Of a stretch of 27,139 nt of DNA, positions 1-23,196 are shown in pieces (the first letter of the stretch is position 1; every line of letters starts with the position of its first letter). The notes under the pieces were generated by a model. The model was not told the origin of the DNA and did no database searches. It saw only the letters and a program-made list of their open reading frames with translations. The position numbers and the translations under genes are program-made. Source of the DNA: a virus; IMG/VR virus record IMGVR_UViG_3300012920_000208, positions 1 to 27,139 of that record; one strand, written 5' to 3'.

Positions 1-69
1 AACCTTTTCTTTACGTTGCTGTGGAGTTAGTCCCATAATTTCTCTATTTATATTCTTTGTATTTATCAT
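1..69 (-). CDS. partial CDS, 5' end only, unknown product
   Basis: A minus-strand reading frame starts with ATG at 69-67 and stays open for 23 codons to the window edge. Its ATG overlaps the TGA of the DnaB-like helicase gene in an ATGA junction, the same coupling seen between other genes of this operon, which is the main reason to accept it. The visible peptide begins MINTKNINREIMG and is polar and Lys/Arg-rich. In related phages a primase or another replication gene often follows the helicase, but nothing in 23 residues identifies one here. Confidence 0.55.
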   Translation of the reverse strand, partial: MINTKNINREIMGLTPQQRKEKV

Positions 70-1022
70 CTTCTTTCTTGTTGTCCTGGGGTTGGCATCT
101 CTTCAATTTGCATTTGTTCAAACTTAGCCTTGAAGAAACTCATCCTAGCATCACCATTTCTTGCTTTTAGAAAGTGTAATACTAATGTTCTATCATTTTC
201 TATTATATATCTATCAGGTCCATAGTATCTAATCTTCTGCTTTGCTGGCCTGTTAATACCTATTAAAGTATCAGCATGCTGTAGCATTGCATCTGAGCCA
301 AATATATCTGACTCAAGAATATAGTTACCATATTTACCATCTATAGCTCTATCCGGATTATCTATATTCCTATTCAATTGTGATAAGCATATAAACAAAC
401 AAGGATAGTCTCTCTTACACTGTGTAAAGAACTCACCTAATTCAAATAACATATCTAATGTGCTATTCTGATATGGTGCTCTCTTAACTAGCATACTATG
501 ATCAAGAGTTACAATTGTATTTATTCCTTTATGAGCTGTCATATATCTATCTATCTGTTCACGCATTTGGTTAACAGTCATAGGTGTAGATATAATATCA
601 ACTGGATACTTTACTCTTTCTTTAGCATATAAATGACACTGATTTAATGTTTCATTATTTAGCACTGATCCAGCGCTACATAACTCTTTATAAGTTTTAC
701 CAGTAATTGAACTAAATTCTCTGATAGCTGATGTTCTACCAACCATCTCAAACTGAAATTCTAAAACTCTAAACTTATCATTAGGGTTTAATATAAATGA
801 TTCTCTAATTATTTGATCCTTAATTAGTGTTTTACCTGAGCCAGGTCTACCACCAATTACAGTTAATGTGTTCCATTCTAATCCATCAGTTGTTGCATCA
901 TTAAACTTGGGCCAAGGTGTATATATAGATTTCTCCTCTCCGGTAGATCTCTTAAACATATATTTAAGTGCTTCATTGAAGGCTGCATATTGTCCAACCC
1001 AAGCATCTGATGTTTTACTCAT
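66..1022 (-). CDS. DnaB-like replicative helicase (SF4/RecA fold)
   Basis: This 318-residue protein is a RecA-fold ATPase of the DnaB helicase family, expected to unwind the phage replication fork as a hexamer. Visible motifs are Walker A GGRPGSGKT (residues 57-65), a DnaB-like FQFEM segment (89-93), Walker B TIVTLD (169-174), the SQLNR motif (214-218) and KARNGD (286-291), which sits where DnaB has its arginine-finger region. It lacks most of the N-terminal DnaB domain, so it is a short, helicase-domain-only version. Its ATG overlaps the TGA of the upstream winged-helix gene (ATGA), and it lies third in a replication operon after a DnaA-like gene. The family call is firm; the role at the fork is inferred. 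Confidence 0.9.
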   Translation of the reverse strand: MSKTSDAWVGQYAAFNEALKYMFKRSTGEEKSIYTPWPKFNDATTDGLEWNTLTVIGGRPGSGKTLIKDQIIRESFILNPNDKFRVLEFQFEMVGRTSAIREFSSITGKTYKELCSAGSVLNNETLNQCHLYAKERVKYPVDIISTPMTVNQMREQIDRYMTAHKGINTIVTLDHSMLVKRAPYQNSTLDMLFELGEFFTQCKRDYPCLFICLSQLNRNIDNPDRAIDGKYGNYILESDIFGSDAMLQHADTLIGINRPAKQKIRYYGPDRYIIENDRTLVLHFLKARNGDARMSFFKAKFEQMQIEEMPTPGQQERR

Positions 1023-1609
1023 ACTACATTCTCTTTAAAGTGTTCATCTTCTGTGTTAATACCTTCTAGTATCATATCACAGTAGTCAGCTAATGTAGAA
1101 TGTTTAACTCTATGCTTATCTTGTTTACATATAAAGTATTGACTTGTCTGCATATACAGATAATCAGCATCTCTATACTCATTGACATACATTTTGGTTG
1201 CTTTTATTATGTCATCCCATGTATAATCATATGTTTCAAAGAACCATCTAAATGCTTCACCAAGAGCTTTTACATTATTTCTTGCTGGTTTACCACTAGG
1301 TAGTTTTTTAGCAGGAAATATTTCTCTATATGCATTTATTTTATCTACATGATTCTTACCCATAAGTTGAATATCAGTCTTCTTTTTAGCTTTTATAAAA
1401 TAATTATCTAATCTCACCATAAACAACTTTGCCTGTGGTGTTAGTTTATATACGTTATTATCTAAGTTTAAATATCCAAGGTTTACTAACTGATCCTTGT
1501 CTTCTTGTTTAGATAATGGCAACGCTACTTTGTTCTTCATCCCAAACAAGATTAGAGTTTGGTTGGGAGTCAATTTTTCTTTTAATATTTTCTGGAATAG
1601 TTCCCACAT
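1019..1609 (-). CDS. winged-helix replication-associated protein, candidate helicase loader
   Basis: A 196-residue protein. Residues about 10-70 look like a winged-helix fold (a helix starting LTPNQTLILFG, then a hydrophobic strand pair NVYKLTPQAKLFMV). A Lys-rich linker follows, then a second, mostly helical domain with the segment LPSGKPARNN and several aromatic residues. I recognise this C-terminal pattern from unannotated proteins of Bacteroidetes phages but know no function. It sits between a DnaA-like gene and the DnaB-like helicase and overlaps both, by 101 nt upstream and by ATGA downstream. That position suggests an initiator or helicase loader (inference). A start at 1540 would cut the upstream overlap to 32 nt but would remove the first helix, so 1609 is preferred. 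Confidence 0.7.
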   Translation of the reverse strand: MWELFQKILKEKLTPNQTLILFGMKNKVALPLSKQEDKDQLVNLGYLNLDNNVYKLTPQAKLFMVRLDNYFIKAKKKTDIQLMGKNHVDKINAYREIFPAKKLPSGKPARNNVKALGEAFRWFFETYDYTWDDIIKATKMYVNEYRDADYLYMQTSQYFICKQDKHRVKHSTLADYCDMILEGINTEDEHFKENVV

Positions 1610-2015
1610 CTTTAATTATCTCTTTTAAAATTTGTTTATATGCACCTATCATTTCTCTATCCTTACAGAAGAAAGCATTCTCTACCTTTCTAACTGCATT
1701 AATAATTGATGCATGATTCTTATTAATTGATTTCCCTATGTTTGTTTTCTTATGACCAGATAGATAAGCTATATGAGACATGCTCTGATAATATACCTGA
1801 AACTCTCTATATCTTGTTCTAGATGCCATGGACTCTATGTATTTGTATTTAGGGTTATTCTGTACAAATGCATCATAAGCACACTTTTTAAGTGTATCTA
1901 GAGATAACATGTATTCATCCTGTTCTGGAGTGAATACATATACCTCTACATTATGCTTATCAAAAAAAGTTTTCTTGAACCTTTTTATGTCCGTATGTTG
2001 TTGGTTATTAGACAT
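1509..2015 (-). CDS. DnaA domain IV-like DNA-binding protein
   Basis: A 168-residue protein. Residues about 65-115 resemble the DnaA C-terminal helix-turn-helix (domain IV): a leading basic helix (RTRYREFQVYYQ), then IAYLSGHKKTNIGKSI, and NKNHASIINAVRKVE in place of the DnaA signature DHSTVIHAVRKIE. There is no Walker A, so it is not a full DnaA ATPase. A role in binding origin sequences is inferred from the motif and from being the first gene of an operon that ends in a DnaB helicase. A Bacteroidetes-type promoter lies just upstream (2037-2067), which would give a 5' leader of only about 15 nt. Its last 33 codons overlap the next gene. Confidence 0.72.
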   Translation of the reverse strand: MSNNQQHTDIKRFKKTFFDKHNVEVYVFTPEQDEYMLSLDTLKKCAYDAFVQNNPKYKYIESMASRTRYREFQVYYQSMSHIAYLSGHKKTNIGKSINKNHASIINAVRKVENAFFCKDREMIGAYKQILKEIIKDVGTIPENIKRKIDSQPNSNLVWDEEQSSVAII

Positions 2016-8203: not shown

Positions 8204-8311
8204 TCTTTATTTTATTGCTGTAAAGATAATAATATAAACTTCTTTGAGTCAGTATATATGAATGTATTTTAGTCCAATTGAAAAATAATAAGCATATATA
8301 TAGCTAACGTT

Positions 8312-10273: not shown

Positions 10274-10353
10274 ATTTACTTGTTTATTTATTTGTGCAAT
10301 ATTGCGGGTACTATGCCTATCATCCTATAGAGGAAAGACAAAGTAATTATATA

Positions 10354-10421
10354 AGCCAACACACTGTAATTATATTTTTGTGGATAATGTGAATTCTCCC
10401 GCAATTACAGTTGTGTTAGCT
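10354..10421. repeat. large inverted repeat around a DnaA box
   Basis: AACACA-CTGTAATT (10358-10371) pairs with AATTACAG-T-TGTGTT (10403-10417) over 14 bp with a single bulged T at 10411. After one mismatch, three more pairs (AGC/GCT) extend it. The 31-nt loop (10372-10402) contains TGTGGATAA. The right arm also belongs to a competing repeat, CCCGCAAT, that pairs with 10301-10308. Confidence 0.7.
10379..10387 (-). promoter_or_regulatory. perfect consensus DnaA box
   Basis: Read on the minus strand, this 9-mer is TTATCCACA, identical to the high-affinity bacterial DnaA box. It lies in the loop of the large inverted repeat. Two one-mismatch copies elsewhere (near 2518 and 6468) are inside genes and are taken as chance. 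Confidence 0.5.
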
Positions 10422-10565
10422 ATATTTATATTATAGGTTGTAACAAAAGTTACAGTAGTGGTAAAAGGTGGTATTTTGTGGGTATAAGACCTATCTTTTT
10501 GTGTTACACACACATAAAATAAAATTTTACCACAGTTTTATGCAATAAATTGGCATAACGTGCTA

Positions 10566-10576
10566 TAGCTGGGGAG
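10566..10576. repeat. direct repeat copy 1 (TAGCTGGGGAG)
   Basis: TAGCTGGGGAG followed by AAGA. A second copy at 11100-11110 is followed by CAGA, giving 15 positions with one mismatch. The two copies bracket the 109-residue gene at 10706-11035. Runs of four G are rare in this AT-rich sequence. Confidence 0.45.
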
Positions 10577-10663
10577 AAGATGGCCGTAACTGTAGTTAGC
10601 AGAGCAGAAAGCAGATAAAATAGCAGTAACTTTTACTTGCATGCATTGCTTTTACTCTGTTAA

Positions 10664-10697
10664 CTAAAAGACAACAGAGCTGTTACACTCTGTTGCC
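10664..10697 (-). terminator. rho-independent terminator with an alternative pairing
   Basis: On the minus strand, GGCAACAGAG (10697-10688) pairs with CTCTGTTGTC (10679-10670) over 10 bp with one G-U, around an 8-nt loop, then TTTTAGTTA. It lies 8 nt past the stop of the gene at 10706. A third segment, AACAGAG on the minus strand (10661-10655), can pair with the same CTCTGTT arm, giving an attenuator-like alternative. Confidence 0.65.
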
Positions 10698-10705
10698 TAT
10701 TGTTA

Positions 10706-11035
10706 TTAGACACTCTCTACCCAACGCAGATTAGTTTCTTCCCCTGTGTTTAAATCTACTACAGGGTTATCACTTAATTTAAAGTTTGGCATTTCATCTC
10801 CTTGGTTGAGTTTGTTTTGCAAAGCTTTAATTGTAGGATGTTGTGCGTTCATCACTTTGTTTGTATCAGGGTCTATAAGACTTAAGATGCCAAAGGTTAC
10901 ATTACCTGTTGCTCTTGTTGCTACTGACATTCCTGCAAGCTCATTCTTCTTTGAAGTGATTGGCTTGTCTGATACAATGATGGTTGCTGTTCCTGTGTTC
11001 TCATTGATTCTTAATTTTCTGAAAAATACTGACAT
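10706..11035 (-). CDS. hypothetical protein, 109 aa, first gene of the minus arm
   Basis: A 109-residue protein starting MSVFFRKLRINENTGTATII. It alternates strands and turns and contains TRATGNVTFGILSLIDPDTN and a conserved-looking end with NLRWVESV. No family is recognised; the beta-rich, mildly charged make-up could suit a small nucleic-acid-binding or virion-associated protein. The frame opens 20 codons earlier (11095), but that extension falls in the G-rich intergenic DNA and is rejected in favour of ATG 11035. It is a single-gene unit with its own terminator (10664-10697) and is bracketed by copies of TAGCTGGGGAG. Confidence 0.65.
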   Translation of the reverse strand: MSVFFRKLRINENTGTATIIVSDKPITSKKNELAGMSVATRATGNVTFGILSLIDPDTNKVMNAQHPTIKALQNKLNQGDEMPNFKLSDNPVVDLNTGEETNLRWVESV

Positions 11036-11099: not shown

Positions 11100-11110
11100 T
11101 AGCTGGGGAG
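11100..11110. repeat. direct repeat copy 2 (TAGCTGGGGAG)
   Basis: This is the partner of the copy at 10566-10576, in the same orientation and 534 bp away. It lies 65 nt upstream of the minus-strand gene start at 11035 and 165 nt upstream of the plus-strand gene at 11275. Confidence 0.45.
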
Positions 11111-11207
11111 CAGAATAGTAGAACCTTTCAAGCACGCAAAACACACAACTTTTTGGGGGGCAAAAAATTTTTTTTCCAGAAGGCGGGGACATCTTGTGAC
11201 TCAAAAA

Positions 11208-23136: not shown

Positions 23137-23196
23137 GCGTTAGCTATATACTGCAAAATATTTTCAATTTTTAGAAAATTTATTAAGTTTATAGTG

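Follow-up and report, generated by a model that had tools for sequence, protein, structure and literature searches.

Organization of the locus

The analysed DNA (27,139 nt, referred to as the window) is an IMG/VR record representing a fragment of an aquatic crAss-like phage. Its TerL is of the crAss type, with 24–26% identity to many crAss-like records, and its portal, major head protein (MCP) and DnaB-like helicase match phage families. The main features, all on the minus strand, are as follows.

66–1022, minus strand: DnaB-like helicase (Pfam DnaB_C, E 1.6e-17; phrog_19), sharing an operon with the DnaA-domain-IV-like gene
1509–2015, minus strand: stand-alone 168-aa DnaA-domain-IV-like protein of the DnaB operon, assigned by profile, fold and alignment
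10310–10352, minus strand: second hairpin of the putative leader, around TTCCTCTATAGGATGATAGGCATAGTACCCG, a 16-mer conserved in dozens of IMG/VR contigs; it folds in most relatives
10354–10421, minus strand: inverted repeat enclosing a 31-nt loop; it represents one form of the stem-loop, variable among relatives, that lies at the 5′ terminus of the putative leftward leader
10379–10387, minus strand: TTATCCACA, the reported DnaA box; exact match, specific to one lineage
10415–10435, minus strand: A/T-only run followed by GCTAAC (TATAATATAAATATAGCTAAC), DUE-like or -10-like by its gap (22 bp past the array) and consensus
10457–10485, minus strand: three CCAC-centred 9-mers (ATACCCACA, AATACCACC, TTTACCACT), 10 bp apart and head to tail, in 37 of 43 distinct regions
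10669–10698, minus strand: predicted intrinsic terminator of the 109-aa gene; its stem shows compensated changes in relatives
10706–11035, minus strand: conserved 109-aa protein, weakly SSB/PriB OB-fold-like (best E 0.08)

The 432-bp gap at 10274–10705 contains no ORF of at least 50 aa, in agreement with its earlier description as gene-free, and it lies next to the boundary between the replication block and the structural block of genes. The gene downstream of the region varies among relatives. The neighbouring 109-aa protein was modelled as a beta-rich fold with weak similarity to SSB/PriB; four loci (L091, L111, L120 and L030) carry its gene in two nearby copies. The sequence CTKCTCCCCAGCTA flanks this gene in the window (10566–10579 and 11100–11113, both minus strand); among the scanned genomes, it appeared near this locus only.

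The reported DnaA box and its hairpin

The sequence-only reading had proposed that a perfect DnaA box, held in the loop of a large inverted repeat, marks a phage origin read by host DnaA, by a phage mimic of DnaA, or by both. Its description of the box was accurate: TTATCCACA, at 10387–10379 of the minus strand, is an exact match located in a loop of 31 nt, closed by a strong inverted repeat with the arms AACACA(A)CTGTAATT and AATTACAGTGTGTT and with GCT/GGC lengthening the stem. Folding of 10340–10430 as DNA gave −14.3 kcal/mol (z −4.5), and none of 200 shuffles was equally stable. The 9-mer, the sole exact copy within the window, is expected 0.003–0.006 times in 432 bp, that is, well under once locally, as had been estimated, and 0.4 times in the whole window. 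At the same time, DnaA boxes were not enriched, since TTATNCACA occurred twice in the window versus 2.3 expected, and no enrichment was detected across the genomes either.

Comparison of the hairpin segment among relatives

Relatives were gathered by means of the neighbouring 109-aa gene (32 found, using the longer ORF that extends to 11095) and the conserved 16-mer (91 stretches, most with the same element), and removal of near-duplicates left 43 distinct regions, the window included. In the closest relative, L001, both flanks are nearly base-for-base those of the window and the segment with the box and the stem is replaced. The TTATNCACA box was absent from this region in all 42 other distinct relatives. 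Three loci (L015, L091 and L098) retain a stem at the same position with a different sequence, and among the relatives with the stem, three inner pairs are altered on both sides; these compensatory changes indicate that the hairpin is a maintained structure. The homologous hairpin loops read ATACCAATA where the window has TTATCCACA. The variable segment was also considered as a possible small ORF: inspection by eye showed a codon-like pattern in some relatives and in-frame stops in others, and because of these stops the segment was not regarded as coding. A search of annotated phages found no similar DNA, and the Rfam search of the region gave zero matches.

The proposal that the box serves as a phage origin was not supported by this comparison. 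It fails because L001 keeps the flanks without the box and the stem, which is the observation that had been named in advance as contradicting it, and the box is likewise missing from the other distinct relatives. Recognition by host DnaA or a phage mimic of a perfect box displayed in a hairpin loop, despite the perfection of the box, its low local chance expectation and the strength of the hairpin, is largely refuted by sequence comparison and seems to us very improbable; moreover, the homologous loops carry another sequence, and in the literature consulted, origins use clusters of boxes rather than a single one (PMC5043019). So, TTATCCACA is probably incidental: a 9-mer peculiar to one lineage, in the loop of a leader hairpin that itself varies.

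The left arm of the stem is formed by the motif ATATAGCTAAC, an 11-mer with exactly three copies in the window, at 8298–8308 (plus strand), 10415–10425 (minus strand) and 23139–23149 (minus strand), and relatives carry it at matching intergenic places, one of them directly 3′ of the stop codon of the portal gene. It could be supposed from these exact, matched copies, from the use of the motif as a stem arm and from the swapping of the segment between near-identical relatives that the hairpin segment is itself a recombination or regulatory site, built on ATATAGCTAAC, which recurs three times per genome at conserved intergenic positions. However, the segment between sites was not observed in inverted form, and this explanation is considered unlikely.

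The CCAC array and the A/T-only run

A different element is conserved 70–100 bp from the reported box. Three CCAC-centred units in exact 10-bp steps are present in 37 of the 43 distinct regions, including the window, and the gap between this array and the A/T-only run is 20–22 bp in 33 of the 37 array-bearing relatives. The run is mostly 15–17 nt long, and its end is ATATAGCTAAC. Along the leftward strand, the order is terminator, CCAC units, gap, A/T-only run, ATAGCTAAC and leader hairpins. The spacing of the array and the run is thus held in most of the 43 distinct regions, whereas the reported box is not persistent. In the five genomes or fragments tested, the triple array occurred at one place per genome, against an expectation of 0.01 per window.

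According to per-position counts, the units approximate WWWHCCACN, of which TTATCCACA is one instance, and they differ from TTATCCACA by one to five mismatches. Compared with TTWTNCACA, units 1 and 3 mostly have two mismatches or fewer, and unit 2 has three to four. Judged from this comparison, the non-coding region 10274–10705 is a real, strongly conserved, switch-like control element common to dozens of aquatic crAss-like phages.

The shuffle-corrected folding of the region favours the leader strand over its complement (mean z −2.5 versus −1.2; lower in 34 of 43), whereas the raw folding energy had favoured the complementary strand; this signal is moderate, and the sequences compared are related to one another. 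The frequency of sigma-70-like matches in the region was not above that of shuffles.

The DnaA-domain-IV-like protein

The sequence-only reading had also pointed to a phage protein resembling DnaA domain IV in a DnaB operon, and this was supported: 15 of 16 family members matched Bac_DnaA_C (Pfam, PF08299; best E 2e-8), and Foldseek with the model of the 168-aa protein returned DnaA DNA-binding domains as the top PDB matches (probability 1.00 to 3pvp and 1j1v). The copy in the window itself matched with E 0.014, below the cut-off, and one genome scored above the curated cut-off. No AAA+ domain (PF00308) was found in the window, so a full DnaA initiator is not present there. Of the DnaA contact positions in the family alignment, R399 and H434 are invariant, D433 is replaced by N and T435 by A; that is, two of the four contacts are kept. 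What R399 and the HTH helix do in DnaA has been described (PMC5742627); Bac_DnaA_C-like domains are found in other proteins as well, where their targets may differ and need not be DnaA boxes (PMC6006769). No similar DnaA-IV protein was found in annotated phages. The gene and the one that follows share approximately 100 bp in different frames (1509–1609, minus strand), at the start of the latter.

In six genomes (G017, G018, G019, G020, G021 and G023), the match is confined to the tail of the protein, the stretch that runs into the next gene in the window. Four of the six (G017, G020, G021 and G023; loci L084, L105 and duplicates) nevertheless have the full triple array, which shows that the array cannot depend on the phage protein as its sole reader. 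Conversely, G006 and G014 encode the protein and lack the full array. A strict coupling of the array with the protein was therefore rejected. In one lineage, G012/G027 (L154, L155), the array is changed and DHSS stands in place of NHAT. The DnaA-IV-like gene of the same two loci is interrupted in frame by a TAG codon, suggestive of amber recoding.

Discussion

We favour, with a probability of roughly 0.55, the view that 10274–10705 provides the leftward operon with its promoter/operator and a structured 5′ leader; TTATCCACA would be incidental to it. Transcription of the 109-aa gene would end at the intrinsic terminator, a DNA-binding protein would occupy the three CCAC sites, all on one helix face, and the DNA would open approximately 21 bp beyond the array, at the conserved A/T-only run; the leftward transcript would then start near GCTAAC, and the leader RNA would fold into one or two hairpins. 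What the comparison shows directly is the conservation, the spacing, the terminator-like stem and the covariation in the hairpin stem; promoter activity, strand opening and the identity of the reader protein are what we infer. Transcription is preferred because of the upstream terminator and the composition-corrected folding of the leader strand: an intrinsic terminator whose stem shows compensated changes lies ahead of the region, so that the leftward genes require a promoter of their own at this place.

The same arrangement counts against the promoter-based explanation, because DnaA boxes, too, are placed head to tail at about two turns from the A/T-rich DUE beside them. The sigma-70 result, the moderate strength of the leader folding signal and the variable downstream gene also weigh against it. 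The region might instead be an oriC-like phage origin, at which the CCAC sites would be bound by host DnaA, by the DnaA-IV-like protein of the phage or by both, the A/T run would melt, and the helicase of the DnaA-IV operon would be loaded. We regard this as possible but distinctly less probable than the promoter/leader, and keep it in consideration because its geometry resembles oriC; both functions can coexist. The three sites share the CCAC core of TTATCCACA and lie head to tail, pointing at an A/T-only run 20–22 bp away; a distance of about two helical turns between the last box and the DUE is typical (PMC5043019), and so are low-affinity boxes in the same direction (PMC5742627). Additionally, a DnaA-IV-like protein is phage-encoded, a possible SSB is nearby, and the position beside the switch between replication and structural blocks may be compared with the block-junction origin of another crAss-like phage, an Ori-Finder prediction (PMC12386605). 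Against an origin stand the one to five mismatches of the units from TTATCCACA, the four genomes in which the DnaA-IV domain is missing and the full array present, the two that keep the protein without the full array, and the skew, which gave no replication signal. The cumulative GC-skew minimum indeed falls at this locus, but it is accounted for by gene direction and not by a replication-caused inflection: in G005, third-position sense skew did not differ between leading- and lagging-type genes (0.19, 0.18, 0.18), with no replication component visible. Since the skew tracks gene strand, its minimum gives no independent support for an origin.

A more specific and still more tentative extension is that aquatic crAss-like phages have their own oriC-like origin, comprising three phased CCAC sites and an unwinding run, which would be read by a phage DnaA-IV-like protein of shifted specificity or, where the protein has been lost, by host DnaA. 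Whichever function prevails, the precisely spaced cis element conserved in dozens of aquatic relatives, mostly with a DnaA-IV-like gene, offers a short defined DNA for direct origin or promoter tests. In the literature searched, an origin of a crAss-like phage appeared only as a software prediction, and a phage-encoded DnaA domain IV was not reported.

Comparison with known systems

The favoured promoter/leader shares with phage promoter/operator regions that have structured leaders its place after a terminator and upstream of an operon, its phased operator-like repeats and its leader hairpins, and differs from them in that neither known promoter motifs nor Rfam families gave a match. As in bacterial oriC, the region has head-to-tail 9-mers with a CCAC core, an A/T-rich run about two turns away and replication genes nearby; by sequence, the adjacent A/T-rich element of oriC would correspond to the A/T-only run, which has the appropriate distance from the array in most relatives. 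Unlike oriC, the units are weak matches to TTWTNCACA with 10-bp spacing, the window has no full-length DnaA, and the initiator and function of the element are putative. With regard to a cluster of DnaA boxes, the region has three phased CCAC units, of which the second is the weaker match, and only one exact box, which is not conserved. The phage protein differs from DnaA domain IV (PF08299; PDB 1j1v, 3pvp) in being a stand-alone 168-aa polypeptide without AAA+, with N and A replacing D433 and T435, and resembles it in its fold, as found by Foldseek, and in the invariance of the R399 and H434 positions throughout the phage family.
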